From: Anaerolineales bacterium
Lineage (GTDB): Bacteria > Chloroflexota > Anaerolineae > Anaerolineales > Villigracilaceae
Assembly: GCA_011389535.1 (NCBI GenBank)
Contig: JAABUE010000003.1
Span: 1 to 48,808, forward strand
DNA length: 48,808 bases
Reading direction: 5' to 3'
Shown here: positions 4,668 to 17,751 of the stretch, piece after piece
Position numbering within the stretch: the stretch's first letter is position 1
Layout of the letters: each line of letters starts with the position of its first letter
Notes under the pieces: generated by a model
Database searches by the model: none
The model's input: the letters and a program-made list of their open reading frames with translations, nothing else
What the model was told of the DNA's origin: nothing
Translations under genes and position numbers: made by a program

Positions 4668-5612
4668 CTAAAAAGACTTGACTTTCCACCACAGAGAGGG
4701 GATTCGGCTGATTTTATCCCATGCACCTAAACTGGCACGTTTGCTGAAGACGTCATAAGCATTAGCTTCGATCGCATCCAGGATACCCTGGTAGAAAACG
4801 GCGGCCGCGCCAATCGCGAGCTGCCCTTCACGTTCGAGCATCCTAACGCCCGGCCAGGCCTCATCGTACAGTTTACGGGTACGCTCGATCTGGAATTTCA
4901 TGAACAGCCGCCAGGCGTCTGTCACGTTGCCGGCAGCGATGTCCGTTTCACGGATACCATACAGCGCCAGCTCATCACGGGGGAGATACACGCGTCCATT
5001 GCGGAAATCTTCGCCCACATCGCGCAGGATGTTGGTCATTTGCAGGGCTACACCGAGTTTGATCGCGTACGGAACGGCCTCGTTCGTTTTGAAGCCAACG
5101 ATATACATGCTCATCAGCCCGACAGTGGATGCGACACCATAACAATAGGTGGCCAGCTCTTCGAAGGTCTGGTAACGGGTCTGGGTCATGTCCCGGTTGA
5201 CACCGTCGATCAGCTGCAGGGCGTAGTGGCGCGGGATGTGGTATCGAGCCAGGGTGTCGGTCCATGCGGCGGCGACCGGGTCAGCATCCGAGAAAGAAGC
5301 GGACTGGACCACTTCCCGCCAGTAGTCCAGATGTGAGTCTCTTTCATCAAGAATATCTTCGTCCACGATATCATCCACAATCCGGCAAAAGGCATACAAG
5401 GCACGCACAGCGGAACGTTTTTCTTCGGGTAACAGCTGCGAAGCCAGAAAGAAGGATTTGCTATGCTCCCGGGTGACTTCTCGGGTGTGCGCGTAAGCTT
5501 TGCGGAGAGACGCATCTCCGGCCCAATACGAAAAGAACGGCCGTGTTGAGGGATGGGGAACATTTCCGGCCAGAGCGATCAATTGATTTTCCCAGCGAGC
5601 CTGCACTTCCAT
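4668..5612 (-). CDS. crtB: phytoene/squalene synthase family protein
   Basis: Asp-rich motifs RIVDDIVDE and NILRDVGEDFRNGRVYLPRDEL; SKSFFLASQLLPEEKRSAVRALYAFCR. Confidence 0.9.
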   Translation of the reverse strand: MEVQARWENQLIALAGNVPHPSTRPFFSYWAGDASLRKAYAHTREVTREHSKSFFLASQLLPEEKRSAVRALYAFCRIVDDIVDEDILDERDSHLDYWREVVQSASFSDADPVAAAWTDTLARYHIPRHYALQLIDGVNRDMTQTRYQTFEELATYCYGVASTVGLMSMYIVGFKTNEAVPYAIKLGVALQMTNILRDVGEDFRNGRVYLPRDELALYGIRETDIAAGNVTDAWRLFMKFQIERTRKLYDEAWPGVRMLEREGQLAIGAAAVFYQGILDAIEANAYDVFSKRASLGAWDKISRIPSLWWKVKSF

Positions 5613-5798: not shown

Positions 5799-7334
5799 AT
5801 GCAACACAACCCAACTGCCATTGTGATTGGCGCCGGGATCGGCGGGATCGCTACCGCCGCCAGGCTGGCAAAAAACGGATACAACGTGACCGTGCTCGAA
5901 AAGAATGAATCCCCTGGCGGGCGCTGTAACCAGATCGTACAAGACGGCCATCGGTTCGACATCGGCCCAACCCTGTTTCTGATGCCCGAGGTTTGGGAAG
6001 AGACTTTCGCGTCTTTGGGCGAAAAGATGGGCGACCATCTCGACCTGCGACGCATCGACCCAACCTATATGGTCCGTTTCGACGATGGCCTGCAACTTGA
6101 GCTGACATCTAACATTGGCGATATGCAAGCCCAGCTCGAAGCCGTGGAAAAGACCGCCTTTACAGGTTTCCTTAACTACATCGCCGAAGGCTCGAAACAC
6201 TACAAGGTTTCACTCGATAAATTTGTGGGCCGCAACTTCTTCAGCATCTTCGATTATTTCAGCCTGAAGAACCTGCCGCTGATCTTCAAGTTGAAAGCGC
6301 TGGGCAAGCACTACCGCAACACAGGCCGCTTCTTCAAGGACGAGCGCCTGAAAGCGGCCTTCACCTTCCAGAACATGTACCTGGGACTCAGCCCTTACGA
6401 TGCCCCGGCCACTTATTCCCTGCTGCAATATACAGAACTGGCAGAAGGCGTCTGGTATCCGATGGGCGGGGTGTATGCGGCGATCGAAGCCCTGGTGAAA
6501 ATTGCTGAAAAGCTGGGTGTAAAGTTCATCTACAACGCTCCTGCCAAGAAGTTGAATGTTGAAGGTTCGCAAGTGAAAACGGTTGAACTGGGAAATGGGA
6601 AAACGCTCGAAGCCGATATTTTCGTCGGAAACGCAGACCTGCCTTACATCTACAAGGAACTGCTGCCCGATCCCATCGCGGCCAAAAAACTGGATAAAAA
6701 GCTCTACACCTGCTCCACGATCATGTTTTACTGGGGCGTGGACAAGCAGTACCCACAGATCGGTCACCACAATGTCTTCCTGGCCAGCGATTACAAGGCT
6801 TCCTTCGACCAGATTTTCAAGGAGCACAACCTGCCCGATAAGCCCAGCTTCTATGTCCACGCGCCGGCCCGCACCGATCCCGCCGCCGCGCCCGCAGGCC
6901 AGGATACGCTCTACGTGCTGGTCCCGGTCGGTCACCTGGATGCGGCCAGCGAGCAAGACTGGGACGAACGCGTTAACCGGGCGCGAAAGGCCGTTTTCGA
7001 GCGGCTGTCGAAAGAGATGGGGATCGACGATCTGGAGAGCCATCTCAAGTTCGAGATCGCCTACCAGCCCAAGGTCTGGAAAGAACGTTTTAACCTTGAG
7101 AAGGGCGCCGCCTTTGGGCTCAGCCACAATTTCTGGCAGGTCGGTTATCTACGTCCACAAAACCGTCACAAAAAATACAAGAATCTGTATTTTGCCGGCG
7201 CGTCTACCCATCCCGGTACGGGCCTGCCTATCGTGTTGCTCTCTGCCAGATTAACGACCGAGCGGATTCTGCTGGAAAAGGGTACAATAACTGTACAAAA
7301 CATGGTCAATGCGGTTGCGGCTGCAACCGACTAG
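5799..7334 (+). CDS. crtI: phytoene desaturase (CrtI family)
   Basis: IVIGAGIGGIATAARLAKNGYNVTVLEKNESPGGRCN dinucleotide-binding motif; C-terminal LYFAGASTHPGTGLPIVLLSARLTTERIL. Confidence 0.92.
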   Translation: MQHNPTAIVIGAGIGGIATAARLAKNGYNVTVLEKNESPGGRCNQIVQDGHRFDIGPTLFLMPEVWEETFASLGEKMGDHLDLRRIDPTYMVRFDDGLQLELTSNIGDMQAQLEAVEKTAFTGFLNYIAEGSKHYKVSLDKFVGRNFFSIFDYFSLKNLPLIFKLKALGKHYRNTGRFFKDERLKAAFTFQNMYLGLSPYDAPATYSLLQYTELAEGVWYPMGGVYAAIEALVKIAEKLGVKFIYNAPAKKLNVEGSQVKTVELGNGKTLEADIFVGNADLPYIYKELLPDPIAAKKLDKKLYTCSTIMFYWGVDKQYPQIGHHNVFLASDYKASFDQIFKEHNLPDKPSFYVHAPARTDPAAAPAGQDTLYVLVPVGHLDAASEQDWDERVNRARKAVFERLSKEMGIDDLESHLKFEIAYQPKVWKERFNLEKGAAFGLSHNFWQVGYLRPQNRHKKYKNLYFAGASTHPGTGLPIVLLSARLTTERILLEKGTITVQNMVNAVAAATD

Positions 7335-7352: not shown

Positions 7353-8645
7353 ATGTCCATCAGCACTACACCCACTTTTAACTTAAAAGTCGTCTTAAAA
7401 GAGACAGGCCTTGCCGCCGACACCCTGCGCGCCTGGGAACGCCGTTATGGACTGCCCATGCCAGAACGTACCCCGGGCGGTCACCGGCTCTATTCCCAGC
7501 GCGACATCGAGACCATCAAATGGCTGATGGCAAAGCAGCGCGAAGGACTGAGCATTTCCCGCGCCGTAGACTTATGGAATGAACTAAGCGCATCCGGCCA
7601 GGACCCGCTGCCTGCGCCCGTTAAACAAATGATTTCCACCCCCAGCGCAAACCTGGACGCTGTCCGCCAGGCCTGGCTAGAGGCATGTCTGAATTTCAAC
7701 GAAAATACCGCAGAACAGGTTTTAAACCAGGCCTTTGCGCTGCACCCTCTGGAAACAGTTTGTATTGAAGTGCTACAACGCGGTCTCAGTGAAATCGGTG
7801 AAATGTGGTACCGCGCGGAAGCGAGCGTCCAACAGGAACACTTCACCGCGGCACTGGCCCAACGCCGCCTGGACGCGCTTATCACAGCAGCGCCGCCTCC
7901 AACACGCCCGCAAACCATCCTGATCGGCTGCACGCCAGGAGAACAACACACTTTCACACCGCTATTGCTTTCTCTGCTCCTTCGGCGCCGCGGGCTGAAA
8001 GTCGTCTACCTGGGAGCCAATGTACCGATCCAGCGCTTCAATGAAACCCTTATATCGGTCAAACCGCATCTGATCATTCTCTCGGCGCAACAACTGCAAT
8101 CCGCCAATGGACTACGAGAGACTGCCGCTTACTTGAACGCCAATGGCGGGCATGTCGCCTACGGCGGCCGCGTTTTCAATCAGATCCCCGAACTTCGCAA
8201 CCGAATCCCTGCCCACTTTTTGGGCGATTCGATCCAGGCAGCAATTCAATCTACTGAAACTTTGCTGACCTCCGATATATCTCCTGAAGGAATCGTGCCG
8301 GTCAGTAAGCAGGATATTGATCTGAGCAAATTGTTTATCCAAAATCGGCCAATGATCGATACATACGCTCTCACACAGGCTGTCAAGATCGGCATTCCTA
8401 TAGAATTTTCGACCATTGCCATCCAACAACTGGGAAGCGACATAGCTTCTGCGCTATCCCTCGGATATATTGAGAGCCTGGCAACGGAGATGGAATGGAT
8501 CAAAGGACTGTTGCAGGAACACAGCCATAGCGTCGAGAGCCTGGATAGCTTTTTGAAAGCTTACGCAAAATCTATCGATTCGGCGATGGGTAAAGAGGGT
8601 CAACCTATATCAACCTGGATAAGAACACAGATTGGTGGAAGGTAA
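7353..8645 (+). CDS. carH: MerR-family regulator with B12-binding domain (CarH/LitR-type photoreceptor)
   Basis: N-terminal MerR HTH (LAADTLRAWERRYGLPMPERTPGGHRLYSQRDIETI), C-terminal cobalamin domain with WYRAEASVQQEH (W-x9-EH) and GEQHTFTPLLLSLLLRRRGLKVVYLGANVP (ExH type axial His). Confidence 0.85.
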   Translation: MSISTTPTFNLKVVLKETGLAADTLRAWERRYGLPMPERTPGGHRLYSQRDIETIKWLMAKQREGLSISRAVDLWNELSASGQDPLPAPVKQMISTPSANLDAVRQAWLEACLNFNENTAEQVLNQAFALHPLETVCIEVLQRGLSEIGEMWYRAEASVQQEHFTAALAQRRLDALITAAPPPTRPQTILIGCTPGEQHTFTPLLLSLLLRRRGLKVVYLGANVPIQRFNETLISVKPHLIILSAQQLQSANGLRETAAYLNANGGHVAYGGRVFNQIPELRNRIPAHFLGDSIQAAIQSTETLLTSDISPEGIVPVSKQDIDLSKLFIQNRPMIDTYALTQAVKIGIPIEFSTIAIQQLGSDIASALSLGYIESLATEMEWIKGLLQEHSHSVESLDSFLKAYAKSIDSAMGKEGQPISTWIRTQIGGR

Positions 8646-10751: not shown

Positions 10752-11077
10752 TGAAACTGGCAAAGCTCATTGCGTGGCTTGGCCTGCTCGCCATGACCAC
10801 CGTCCTCATATACGGCTTCATCGTTGGCGACTTCTTTGCTGAAGGAAGCCAACTGGCCAGCATGCCCTGGGGCATCGTCTCTCTCGTAGACCTTTACACC
10901 GGCTTCACGCTCTTCTCAGCCTGGATCATCTACCGCGAAAAGTCCCTGCCTGTGGCCCTGCTGTGGACAATAGCTATGCTGGTACTTGGCTTCTTTGCAG
11001 GCAGCCTGTACGCTTTGATCAACCTGTATACAAGTCAGGGCGATTGGCGCACGTTCTGGATGGGAAAGCATGCCTGA
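10751..11077 (+). CDS. small membrane protein (DUF1475-like)
   Basis: MPWGIVSLVDLYTGFTLFSAWIIYREKS motif; overlapping start/stop with neighbours. Confidence 0.6.
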   Translation: MKLAKLIAWLGLLAMTTVLIYGFIVGDFFAEGSQLASMPWGIVSLVDLYTGFTLFSAWIIYREKSLPVALLWTIAMLVLGFFAGSLYALINLYTSQGDWRTFWMGKHA

Positions 11078-11768
11078 AAACCTGACTCCCACCCGGGAAA
11101 GCAAAGGTCGCGAACTCCTGGATGAGTTCCGTCTGGTTCTGGGAAGCGGAAATTTGTTGGACGCGGTCCTCCCACCGCTCATTTTCCTGCTGATTAACGC
11201 TCTTTTCGGATTTCAGGTTGCCATGTGGGTATCCCTGGGGCCGGCGATATTGATTGCTGTCCTGCGCCTGTGGCGAGGGCAATCCCTGCTGTACGCCCTG
11301 GCAGGGATCGGCAGTGTAGGGCTGGCCCTTCTAATCGTCTGGTTTCTAGGCCGGTCTGAAGGATATTTTCTACCTAACCTCGTTAGTGGTAGCGTGACCG
11401 CTGCTCTAGCGCTGATCAGTCTGCTTATCCGTCGCCCCCTCGTTGCCTGGACGAGTTTCATCGCCCGACGCTGGCCATTGGATTGGTACTGGCATCCGCG
11501 GGTACGCCCTGCTTATAGCGAAGTCACCCTGGCCTGGACGGTTTTTTTCGCTGTACGTTTGATATGGCAGTTCTCGCTTTTCCAGGCCGAGGCTGCCAGC
11601 CGGTTGGCATTTATCAATTTCATATTGGGCTGGCCCGCGCTAGTCATCCTGCTGGTGCTCAGTTACCTGTACGGTACCTGGCGGCTGAGAAACTTAAACG
11701 GACCGAGCGTAGAAGAATTCCGTAGACAGGTTCCGCCTCCCTGGCAGGGACAAAGACGAGGTTTCTGA
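11070..11768 (+). CDS. DUF3159-like integral membrane protein
   Basis: Multiple TM segments and WTSFIARRWPLDWYWHPRVRPAYSEVTLAWTVFFAVR motif; overlaps neighbours. Confidence 0.6.
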   Translation: MPENLTPTRESKGRELLDEFRLVLGSGNLLDAVLPPLIFLLINALFGFQVAMWVSLGPAILIAVLRLWRGQSLLYALAGIGSVGLALLIVWFLGRSEGYFLPNLVSGSVTAALALISLLIRRPLVAWTSFIARRWPLDWYWHPRVRPAYSEVTLAWTVFFAVRLIWQFSLFQAEAASRLAFINFILGWPALVILLVLSYLYGTWRLRNLNGPSVEEFRRQVPPPWQGQRRGF

Positions 11769-12253
11769 TGGGTAACCGTATTCAAATCAACCAGCCTGCG
11801 CCCGATTTCTCACTGACCGGCGCCAACGGACAACCGGTCCGGCTCTCGAATTTTCACAATAAAGCCAATGTACTGCTGGTCTTTAACCGCGGTTTCATAT
11901 GACCGTTCTGCCAGCGGCACATGGCGCAGTTGCGCCGGGACTATTCTAAATTCCAGGAACTAGAAACTGAAATTATCGTGGTAGGGCCAGAAGATTCGGA
12001 CTCTTTCAATATGTATTGGAAATCACACAAATTGCCCTTCATTGGCTTGCCTGACCCGACTCATAGCGTTTTGAAGCGCTACAGACAGGAAGTCAATCTG
12101 TTCAAGCTGGGGCGCATGCCAGCCCAGGTGATCATCGATAAACAAGGGATTGCCCGTTATGCTCACTACGGGCACGCGATGAGCGACATACCTGAAAACA
12201 GTGAAGTTTTACAAATCGTGCGATCGCTTATCGGTGAGGAAGTATCAGGGTAA
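11768..12253 (+). CDS. candidate selenocysteine-containing peroxiredoxin/redoxin (in-frame UGA read as Sec, U-P-F-C motif)
   Basis: One continuous frame from ATG 11768 (overlaps DUF3159 stop by 1 nt) to TAA 12251-12253, interrupted only by TGA at 11900-11902: MGNRIQINQPAPDFSLTGANGQPVRLSNFHNKANVLLVFNRGFI-U-PFCQRHMAQLRRDYSKF... The redoxin N-terminal motif (APDFSL) is upstream and the rest of the fold downstream. The ORF track gives only 11921-12253. Confidence 0.75.
11900..11936 (+). promoter_or_regulatory. UGA codon plus candidate bacterial SECIS hairpin
   Basis: UGA 11900-11902; GGCGC-AGUU-GCGCC hairpin at 11923-11936, apical loop starting 25 nt after UGA with G as second loop base. Confidence 0.6.
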
Positions 12254-12331: not shown

Positions 12332-13015
12332 ATGAAAAACATAAAACGTACTCCTTTCATCCTGTTCCTGCTCATCCTGCTCATCCCATTATCCTCCGCT
12401 TCAGCACATCGCCCGATTTGGGGTGATCATTATGGCCCAATTGAGATCCCGGATCTGCGCACCTCCTTCGCTGTTTACCGCAACCTGGACTCCGGTCAGA
12501 TCGATGTGTATACCTTCGAGTCTGAAGCCGGGCAGGATTTGCATGCCGGCATCCAGATCCCCGCCGTCGATGGGCTGCAGGAGTACGGCGTCACTGCTGC
12601 GCTCTTTGGCCCCGGCCTGCCTGAAGCAGACTCCAATACCCTGCCTCCCGATCGCCCCGAAGACCTGGGGGTGCTGGTTTTCCCTTCAAGCGTGAGCGCT
12701 GATTTCTTCGAGCCATTCACCCAGACCACCTATTGGGGCCGCCAGCAGATCGACCTGGTTTTGCCGGCCGACGGCGCTTACTATCTGCTCGTCTGGCATC
12801 CGGACGGGAAGCCTGGAAAGTATGTGCTCGACACTGGCCGGGCAGAGGTCTTCGAACCTGCTGACCTGTTCCGCTTCCCGGTCTGGTGGCTGCGCGTGCA
12901 TATCTTCTTCGGGCATGGCTTGGCGCTGGCACTCACGGGCGTTTTGATCGCACTAGCTGTTCTACTGGTTGTCATCCGCAAGCGGACGAAAAAAACCAGC
13001 CCAGCAAAGGAGTGA
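12332..13015 (+). CDS. secreted/membrane-anchored hypothetical protein
   Basis: N-terminal signal peptide (MKNIKRTPFILFLLILLIPLSSASA), C-terminal TM segment plus KRTKK tail. Confidence 0.7.
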   Translation: MKNIKRTPFILFLLILLIPLSSASAHRPIWGDHYGPIEIPDLRTSFAVYRNLDSGQIDVYTFESEAGQDLHAGIQIPAVDGLQEYGVTAALFGPGLPEADSNTLPPDRPEDLGVLVFPSSVSADFFEPFTQTTYWGRQQIDLVLPADGAYYLLVWHPDGKPGKYVLDTGRAEVFEPADLFRFPVWWLRVHIFFGHGLALALTGVLIALAVLLVVIRKRTKKTSPAKE

Positions 13016-13021
13016 GCCACG

Positions 13022-13663
13022 ATGACTGAAACCACCCGCTACGAGCTCCCGCCCGAAGGGATATCCCTGCTCGGTTACATTGTGCGCCGTATGCACAAGA
13101 CCGCCTGGTTGGTTCCCGTTTCTGAACTGCTTTCCCAGGGAAAAAGTGTCAAAGCCCTGGAACATATCGCGCTTTATACCGTCGCATCTTCCACTTCCTA
13201 CGGGCGCGCCTATTACCAGCCAAACTTCGACAGCACAGGCCAGTCCGTCACTGAGCCGGACCCTGCCACAGGAGCAAACGTCACGGCCCGCTTGGACAGC
13301 CGTTCACCGAGTTACCGGATATCCTACCGGGTTGCCATGCCTGGCGGCGACAGCTTCGCAGGCAGCGAAGAGATCACAGGCACCACCGTCGGCTTGCGCG
13401 GTCTGGGCATGCCCGCCCCCTCCCGTTTCACCTTCACATCCGGCGAATATAGCGCCGAACTGACCGGGGTCATCACCAGCGAGCTGGCGCTTTCGCTTAT
13501 AAGGAAGACACACATCCGCGCTTACGGATCGCTAAATTTCAAAGATAATGCTGGCAATTCGGGGCGCATGGAATTGAAACGCGATGGCAGCCTGACCATT
13601 ACCATCAACGACCAGGTCAGACAACATTCGTTGACCGGGTTACAGGTACCGGAAAGCACATGA
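13022..13663 (+). CDS. hypothetical protein
   Basis: Complete ORF between co-directional genes; stop overlaps photolyase start. No family recognised. Confidence 0.65.
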
Positions 13664-15033
13664 CTGCCATCTGGTGGATCCGCCGGGACCTGCGTCTGAC
13701 AGATAACCCCGCGCTTCAAACTGCGCTGGAAGCTGCTTCCGTACTCCCGGTCTTTATCCTTGACCCGGCCCTGCTCTCCCGCCCGGCCCCAAAGCGACAG
13801 GCCTTCCTGTTCAATGGTCTGCGCGCCCTGGACGCGGACCTGCGCCAGCGCGGCAGCTACCTGGTGGTCCGCAGCGGGGAACCGGTGGAAGTCCTGCGTT
13901 CCTTGCTGGCCGAAAGCGACGCAAGGACTGTTTACGCTGAAGAAGATTACTCTCCTTATTCGCGCCAGCGGGACAGGCAGGTTTCCCGCGAACTGCCATT
14001 GCAGCTGGTTTTGGGACAAACCGTCCAGCACCCTGAATTCGTCAAAAAGGCGGATGGTAGTCCGTATACGGTTTACACACCCTATGCCAAAGCCTGGAAA
14101 GCCATGCTGCCAGGCAGCATTCACATGGTCTCCGCGCCTGCGCGCATCCAAACCCCGGCAGGCATCCGCACCGAAACCATTCTTGAAGCCCCCACCAGCG
14201 CCCTGTTCCCGGCAGGCGAAGCAGAGGCGCTTAAACGGTTGTACCAATTTACCAATTTACCAGTTACCAAATACGCTGAAAACCGCAACCGCATGGACCT
14301 GGACGGCACCTCCGCCCTTTCGCCCTACATCCGGTTTGGGATGCTGGGGCTGAGACAGGCTGTCCATAACGCGCAACAGGCCATTCGGTCCGCGGAAGAT
14401 GTGGAGTCGCGCAAAGGCGCCGAAGTCTGGCTGAATGAGCTCATCTGGCGCGAGTTCTACATCCAGATCCTGTATCATTTCCCGCAGGTCAGCAAAACAG
14501 CCTTCAACCCGTCGCTGGCGGAGATCCCCTGGCGGAACAATGTTGAAGAATTCGAAGCCTGGAAAGCGGGACAGACAGGTTACCCCATCGTGGACGCCGG
14601 CATGCGCCAACTGCGCGAGACTGGCTGGATGCACAACCGCGCGCGCATGATCACTGCCTCGTTCCTGGTCAAAGACCTGCTGATCGACTGGCGCTGGGGT
14701 GAGGCCTGGTTCATGGAAAACCTGTTGGACGGCGACCCGGCGGCTAACAACGGCGGCTGGCAATGGACAGCAGGCACCGGCACAGACGCAGCGCCATATT
14801 TCCGCATCTTCAACCCGCTGATACAGGCCATCAAATTCGACCCGCACGGGGATACCATCCGCAAGTGGGTACCCGAGCTGCGCAAGTTAAACGGGAAAGA
14901 AATCCACACGCCGTGGGAGCAGGGCGTGAATGTGGCAGGCTATCCCACGCCGATCGTGGACCACAAAGTTGCACGAGAGCGAACACTCTTGGCATATAAC
15001 TATGCCAGATCTTTTCAGGAATCGACATTATGA
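13660..15033 (+). CDS. phr: deoxyribodipyrimidine photolyase (cryptochrome/photolyase family)
   Basis: [17 protein letters not shown]-terminus; C-terminal FAD domain [64 protein letters not shown]. Confidence 0.95.
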
Positions 15034-16888: not shown

Positions 16889-16916
16889 GAGTCCAACGAC
16901 TGGAGTCGTTGAACTC
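16889..16916. repeat. palindrome containing CAACGACT-GG-AGTCGTTG
   Basis: Perfect 8-bp arms at 16894-16901/16904-16911 with further GAGT/ACTC pairing outside; between P450 stop and lycopene cyclase start. Confidence 0.6.
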
Positions 16917-16929
16917 CGAAAATCAAACT

Positions 16930-17751
16930 ATGACTTACTTTGGCTTTCTGCTTCGATTTCTGGTAATCCCCATTCTGCTCCTGCTCTGGCTCTATTGGCG
17001 AGTAAAGGATCGCTCGTTAATCGGTTTCAATAGCGCCAAACTCTGGCAGGGCATCTTGATCCACATCGTTTTGGCAGTGACGTACACCACGCCCTGGGAT
17101 AACTACCTGGTGGCCACCGGTGTGTGGTATTACGACCCGAATCTGGTCACCGGGATCGTGTTTGGCTATGTCCCGCTGGAGGAATACACCTTCTTTGTGC
17201 TGGAAACAATCTTGGTCGGGCTGTGGTGGTGGACGCTGGCAAGGATGGAAATATTTGTCCCCAATGCTCCTTTCAGACCCAGCAAACCGCTTCGCGCCTG
17301 GACCCTGGGCCTGCTGGCCGTGCTATGGGCAGTCTCGCTCTTTGTCCTGCTCTCAAGCTGGCAACCCGGGACGTATCTCGCCATCACGCTGACATGGGCC
17401 CTGCCCGCCATCGCCCCGCAGTTGGCCTTCGGCGCGGACATCCTGTGGCACCACCGCCGGTTGCTGGGAACGGTCATTTTAACGGGATCAGGCTATTTGT
17501 CCGCGATGGACGCGCTCGCAATCGGCGCCGGGACGTGGACCATCGATCCGTCCCAGTCCGCCGGCATATTTATTGGGAATCTGCCCGTCGAGGAAGCGGT
17601 CTTTTTTGTGATCACCGTCGTATTGATCTCATTTGGGATGACGCTTTTGCTGTCGGATGCGAGCCAGAAACGGCTGGAAGAACTCAAATCACTTCTGGCG
17701 CGTTTACGAGGTTGTGGATCCACTTCCGCGAGCGATAGCGCCGGACCATGA
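16930..17751 (+). CDS. lycopene cyclase (fused CrtYc/CrtYd type membrane protein)
   Basis: Two tandem repeats of the domain: WDNYLVATGVWYYDPNLVTGIVFGYVPLEEYTFFVLE and MDALAIGAGTWTIDPSQSAGIFIGNLPVEEAVFFVIT. ATG 16930 preferred over the TTG at 16909. Confidence 0.85.
   Translation: MTYFGFLLRFLVIPILLLLWLYWRVKDRSLIGFNSAKLWQGILIHIVLAVTYTTPWDNYLVATGVWYYDPNLVTGIVFGYVPLEEYTFFVLETILVGLWWWTLARMEIFVPNAPFRPSKPLRAWTLGLLAVLWAVSLFVLLSSWQPGTYLAITLTWALPAIAPQLAFGADILWHHRRLLGTVILTGSGYLSAMDALAIGAGTWTIDPSQSAGIFIGNLPVEEAVFFVITVVLISFGMTLLLSDASQKRLEELKSLLARLRGCGSTSASDSAGP

Follow-up and report, generated by a model that had tools for sequence, protein, structure and literature searches.

The locus

The window analysed here is the whole of a 48,808-nucleotide stretch of contig JAABUE010000003.1, taken from a 65% complete, fragmented MAG of 2.6 Mb that belongs to the Villigracilaceae (Chloroflexota). 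A frame on its forward strand opens at the ATG at 11768 and runs to the TAA at 12251–12253, with exactly one internal stop, a TGA at codon 45 (11900–11902). Translation confirms the single open readthrough frame described in an earlier note on this DNA, and the ORF list, as that note had said, contains only the downstream fragment, 11921–12253. Read through, the frame predicts a Prx-like/ResA-like redoxin of 161 residues in which the TGA falls within the motif NRGFI-U-PFC, as the first residue of a U-P-F-C site whose partner, Cys48, is encoded at 11909–11911. The Pfam family AhpC-TSA (PF00578) matches residues 7–131 straight across the TGA (E = 5e-22, 78.6 bits against a cut-off of 26), so that the parts before and after the stop form one domain. 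The ATG shares bases with the stop codon of the DUF3159 gene that precedes it (11070–11768, forward strand; assigned from Pfam and sequence, and a conserved neighbour in related loci) in the sequence TGATG at 11766–11770, which suggests that the two genes are translationally coupled. A putative Shine–Dalgarno-like GACGAGG, read from the sequence, lies at 11755–11761, 6 nt before the ATG.

The redoxin gene belongs to a forward-strand operon. This contains a phytoene-desaturase-like amine oxidase gene (crtI-like; 5799–7334, Amino_oxidase 3.6e-28, named by its context) and a gene for a predicted light-sensing regulator of the CarH/LitR type (7353–8645), in which MerR_1, B12-binding_2 and B12-binding domains are combined and whose function is assigned by this architecture; DegV, DUF1295, DUF4345, DUF1475 and DUF3159 genes follow and lead to the redoxin. 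Beyond it are two unknown genes, a DNA photolyase (13660–15033, FAD_binding_7 1e-86), a DUF3267 gene, and a cytochrome P450 (15451–16872) and a lycopene-cyclase-like gene (16909–17751), both identified by domain search. A squalene/phytoene synthase gene (crtB-like; 4668–5612, reverse strand, SQS_PSY 2.1e-80) diverges from the operon. The two genes between redoxin and photolyase (12332–13663) encode proteins of 227 and 213 residues that have no Pfam match; the second of these is conserved in related light clusters.

Conservation of the TGA codon

The readthrough protein, compared with GTDB genomes, recovered 23 loci, and in all 20 that cover the site (52–70% identity) this codon is again TGA. 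The consensus of these 20 aligned sequences is NRGF-x-U-P-[FY]-C-[QR]-x-H-M, with NRGF invariant. The homologue search patterns included MPAQVIID and YAHYGHAM, which carry no bias toward Sec over Cys. Of 400 Chloroflexota genomes, 47 contained the gene at E 1e-30, with one TGA in 51 of 52 copies. The corresponding figures are 23 of 27 copies in the Syntrophaceae-bin phylum (395 genomes), the four stop-free copies all coming from one genome and the 23 including a frameshifted Smithella copy whose TGA lies away from the Sec codon, and 11 of 11 copies in the Alkalibacter phylum (398 genomes). With duplicates removed, 98 distinct copies from these three phyla have U at the Sec codon. A TGA kept at the same codon in the near homologues and in so many copies from three phyla is not due to chance.

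Just one homologue, L067 from genome G232, has a CPFC site (NRGLVCPFC), and its Cys aligns with the UGA position, so that a Cys/Sec pair is present. The alignment with homologues that the earlier note had proposed as a check thus gives TGA nearly everywhere and Cys in the CPFC form, with four paralogues in one genome being CxxS. In a quick tree, which leaves many forks unresolved and brings long branches together, the CxxS forms nest among the Sec forms. The gene is absent from G387, the one genome of the same genus that was searched. A phage origin was considered and rejected, since there is no relative in viral contigs and phage records hold only distant ones (27%).

These data bear on the possibility that the TGA is a nonsense change of TGC or TGT, either in a pseudogene or through an error of sequencing or assembly. 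A single-base difference would suffice for this and the MAG is fragmented, but the explanation retains almost no probability and is already refuted by the approximately 98 homologues, which share the TGA in independent assemblies. In addition, the part after the TGA is under protein constraint, differences at third codon positions exceeding those at first and second positions, and the RNA hairpin described below covaries. The earlier note had judged a random nonsense mutation improbable, in line with the TGA in all 20 near homologues, and the assembly error that it had envisaged is excluded.

Selenocysteine machinery

The MAG encodes a tRNA-Sec with anticodon UCA, a SelA (match of 478 bits), a SelB in a 639-residue frame and a SelD whose own Sec site carries an in-frame TGA; all of selA, selB, selC and selD, on whose presence the earlier note had made its reading depend, were therefore found. 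Among the 46 Chloroflexota genomes that have the TGA form, 45 contain a tRNA-Sec above the Rfam cut-off and the remaining one, G241, has a 93-nt candidate scoring 45.2 bits against a cut-off of 47. In G232, the 99% complete source of the CPFC homologue, the tRNA-Sec search detected none. The search of the Thermomicrobium roseum plasmid gave no tRNA-Sec above the cut-off.

Two other loci of the MAG were seen to have in-frame TGA codons. SelD (G000:C204, L011, reverse strand) is itself a selenoprotein, with the site SSCAGUASKLN and GGCGCAGGUCCUGCGCC downstream of the TGA. A possible further selenoprotein is a TlpA/DipZ-like protein with the sequence WTFGUINCRNVIP (G000:C173:1113-1472, L090, reverse strand), for which a possible hairpin is GGAAU-GUA-AUUCC. 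Every in-frame TGA was scanned at these two loci, which gave many meaningless frames, and the two with protein homology were kept.

The SECIS hairpin

A bacterial SECIS hairpin is predicted at 11922–11937 on the forward strand, with a stem of U/GGCGC pairing with GCGCC/G and the loop AGUU, on the basis of its fold energy, covariation and codon invariance. It is 16 nt long with a stem of 5–6 bp and a G at loop position 2, the loop lying 25 nt after the UGA, and folds with about −9.3 to −9.9 kcal/mol (z = −3.6 at −9.9). The published bSECIS model has a loop of 3–9 nt with G in its first two positions, a stem of 4–16 bp, a distance of 16–37 nt from the UGA and an energy of −7.5 kcal/mol or below (PMC13188914). 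The hairpin satisfies this model, which answers the earlier note's call for a SECIS prediction. The significance lies in the short hairpin, a longer stretch of 76 nt having an unremarkable fold (z = −0.66). An Rfam search with the hairpin matched no family at gathering or permissive thresholds, which counts weakly against a SECIS because the bacterial elements are short and diverse.

Across 21 aligned sequences, 99.2% of cells are paired and two pairs are doubly changed; the covariation score was reached by none of 500 shuffles. The constraint extends to the choice of codons: copies with Gln-Leu at the loop use CAG in 69 of 69 cases and TTG in 69 of 69, TTG being elsewhere a minority codon (about one-fifth of all Leu codons), and GCG encodes 56 of 57 alanines. 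In a strict energy test of the unbulged stem, 69 of 99 Sec rows (one of which is a duplicate reading of L021) pass, against 4.9% of synonymously re-coded controls; the other 30 miss −7.5 kcal/mol, for the most part by a small margin (−6.3 to −7.4) and with the same paired stem. The double-sided pair changes include G24–C37 to C–G, G25–C36 to A–U, C26–G35 to U–A and G27–C34 to A–U. The Alkalibacter phylum (on the Bacillota side) has six copies in which Ala53 and Arg56 have jointly become Met53 and His56 (GCG..CGC to ATG..CAT) with the stem kept, which indicates that the RNA dictates the protein. The Cys form L067 has CAA CTT for Gln-Leu instead of CAG TTG, and there the hairpin is lost through synonymous changes.

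A second account of the open frame is that the UGA is read as a residue other than Sec, by Trp recoding or by plain readthrough of a stop codon. We found nothing beyond the open frame itself to favour this and regard it as exceedingly improbable. TGA ends nine of the 16 neighbouring genes examined and is thus a normal stop in this MAG; the aligned residue is Cys, not Trp, in both L067 and ResA, and Sec machinery and a SECIS are present. With a probability that we put at about 0.95, the UGA at 11900–11902 encodes selenocysteine. The earlier note's proposal of a selenoprotein redoxin is backed, at the level of sequence, by the homologous TGA codons, the sel genes, the covarying SECIS and the AhpC-TSA domain.

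Paralogues

The family falls into types that differ in the position of the hairpin. In type A, to which the redoxin at 11768–12253 belongs, the hairpin lies over MAQLR. Type B, present in many family members, has the site UPYCRAQLARLRDD and the hairpin CGCGC-AGUUG-GCGCG, which keeps the CAGUUG loop but lies closer to the UGA by 9 nt. Comparison of the two suggests that the SECIS has shifted by 9 nt between paralogues and that the protein has followed the RNA (HMAQLR versus QLARLR, as well as Ala/Arg to Met/His). The same MAG carries a second, B-type Sec paralogue (G000:C128:7992-8429, L066, reverse strand), given as UPYCRAQLARLRDG. The Syntrophaceae phylum contains a third group, with UxxA or UxxS sites and, for the most part, other hairpins. 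Relatives with UxxA, UxxS and CxxS sites were noted there (L107–L118), and G504 has one UxxA copy together with four CxxS copies.

Active site and fold

By profile alignment, U45-P-F-C48 coincides with the CPHC of ResA, and the peroxidatic Cys of a Bcp-type peroxiredoxin is matched by C48. From these two alignments Sec45 takes the Thr position of TxxC, the UxxC motif of the redoxin sitting at the TxxC site. The earlier note had put the Sec at the first Cys of a CxxC-like site. This holds by comparison with the CxxC of ResA and thioredoxin, where Sec matches the first Cys; the site does not, however, have the classical peroxiredoxin motif, since the Sec stands at the Thr of TxxC. The same offset separates the TxxU and UxxC families (PMC1914089, Fig. 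3 legend). The canonical peroxiredoxin signature PxxxTxx(C/U) is absent, FNRGFIUPFC being found in its place. In the alignment, an invariant GRMPA segment corresponds to the RLP of a thioredoxin-like protein. The AlphaFold2 model, calculated with Cys for Sec, has a pLDDT of 86.7 and in structure comes closest to the Bcp/PrxQ and AhpE peroxiredoxins, with TM-scores of 0.82–0.83. Taken together, the ResA/thioredoxin-like alignment and the match of the model to Bcp and AhpE are best described as a putative Trx-like site on a Prx scaffold.

The selenoprotein might instead be a strict peroxidase, either a Sec peroxiredoxin or GPx-like, rather than a disulphide oxidoreductase. We give this some weight, though clearly the lesser share. 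Bcp/PrxQ and AhpE are the best structural matches, and glutathione peroxidases also carry Sec at the first position; on the other hand, PxxxTxxC is not kept, its Thr being Sec and its Pro position not being Pro, and the cis-Pro-type GRMPA, aligned with the RLP of the thioredoxin-like protein, is found near what we take to be the position of the catalytic Arg of peroxiredoxins.

The mechanism that we favour would proceed as follows. SelB loaded with Sec-tRNA(UCA) would bind the hairpin at 11922–11937 and selenocysteine would be inserted at the UGA, giving the full 161-residue AhpC/TSA-fold redoxin with the site Sec45-Pro-Phe-Cys48. Sec45, which corresponds to the leading Cys in the CxxC of ResA and thioredoxin, would be the attacking nucleophile and Cys48 would resolve the selenenylsulphide, with the cis-Pro-type loop GRMPA predicted to lie opposite this pair. 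The outcome would most likely be fast reduction of a disulphide or organic hydroperoxide, with thioredoxin as the probable reductant that recharges the redoxin.

Known relatives

Prx-like UxxC selenoproteins with PF00578 have been predicted to be redox proteins, their function being unknown (PMC13188914, PMC1088965, PMC2398784). They include a Prx-like thiol:disulphide oxidoreductase family with UxxC or UxxU, represented by WP_010940744.1 (PMC13188914, Table 1), and the Sargasso ‘Prx-like protein’ belongs with them (PMC1088965). We would place the redoxin with these known selenoproteins by fold and motif, the family being compared by its description. It resembles them in the AhpC-TSA fold, the UxxC, the first-position Sec and the distance from true peroxiredoxins, and differs in its light-cluster setting, of which the papers found make no mention.

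Other relatives are less close. The SelL-related redox protein model NF040769 is the best NCBIfam match and is matched by all 20 members, but the redoxin scores 74.8 bits against a curated cut-off of 120, and no NCBIfam model reaches its cut-off. ResA/TlpA proteins share the CxxC aligned with UPFC and the thioredoxin-like cis-Pro segment, whereas the redoxin has no apparent signal peptide or membrane anchor, has Sec for the first Cys and matches Bcp/PrxQ better in structure. Bcp/PrxQ and AhpE share the overall fold (TM-score 0.82–0.83), but their PxxxTxxC is replaced by the Sec-containing UxxC.

The light-response cluster in related loci

Neighbourhoods were compared at 20 extended relative loci, 11 of A-type (Chloroflexota) and nine of B-type. 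CarH, crtI and crtB adjoin the A-type copy in five of the 11: three loci from the same family (L135, L136 and L142) repeat the gene order seen here, including CarH, crtI, crtB, photolyase and DUF genes, and in two others (L133 and L138) CarH/crtI/crtB are next to the redoxin, with lycopene cyclase or photolyase. A sixth A-type locus, L137, has a photolyase nearby. No light-cluster neighbours were found at the A-type loci L134, L139–L141 and L143, so that light defence is not the only role of the family. None of the nine B-type loci has CarH, crtI, crtB or photolyase as a neighbour.

The position of the gene might be incidental and its role general redox housekeeping, as roughly one in two of the A-type loci examined lies outside a light cluster and the family is also found in Syntrophaceae and Bacillota genomes. 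We think this rather unlikely, given the recurring order of CarH, crtI, crtB, photolyase and DUF genes, their adjoining the redoxin in two further loci, and the B-type paralogues never being in a light cluster. The comparison lends support to the photo-oxidative role that the earlier note had inferred from the operon, and such a role is slightly favoured over part of the range of type A. Membership of a CarH-type light-response operon would make it most likely that the redoxin, probably induced by light, repairs or detoxifies photo-oxidation products. A literature search for a link between a selenoprotein and a CarH cluster found no paper.

Discussion

Selenoproteins of this kind were already known; what is unusual here is the apparent link to a light regulon and the repositioning of the SECIS. 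The fullest reading of the data would be a light-regulated Sec redoxin under control of a CarH-type B12 photoreceptor, by which selenium is dedicated to photo-oxidative defence in Chloroflexota, with Sec kept in almost every genome having the gene and a SECIS moved by 9 nt between paralogues while the protein followed the RNA; on this whole we are evenly divided.

Gene finders read the Sec UGA as a stop, and the enzyme is therefore routinely mis-annotated. This happens even in Thermomicrobium roseum, a cultured organism with a finished record: its TRD_RS15230, a ‘hypothetical protein’ of 42 residues, comprises the beginning of a family member up to the UGA, where the listed gene ends. This locus (L130, NC_011961.1 545266-545394) has no listed gene for the remainder past the UGA, and a clear SECIS-like hairpin, CUGGCGC-AGUU-GCGCCAG, follows the UGA. 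Standard annotation does not show the catalytic residue of the redoxin.

With a redoxin that retains Sec in three phyla and is tied to a light cluster in part of its range, a link between selenium and photoprotection becomes testable. The family also offers a clean natural case of an RNA element dictating amino acids, in which the loop and stem positions of the SECIS are fixed at codon level and compensatory changes in the RNA force paired changes in the protein.
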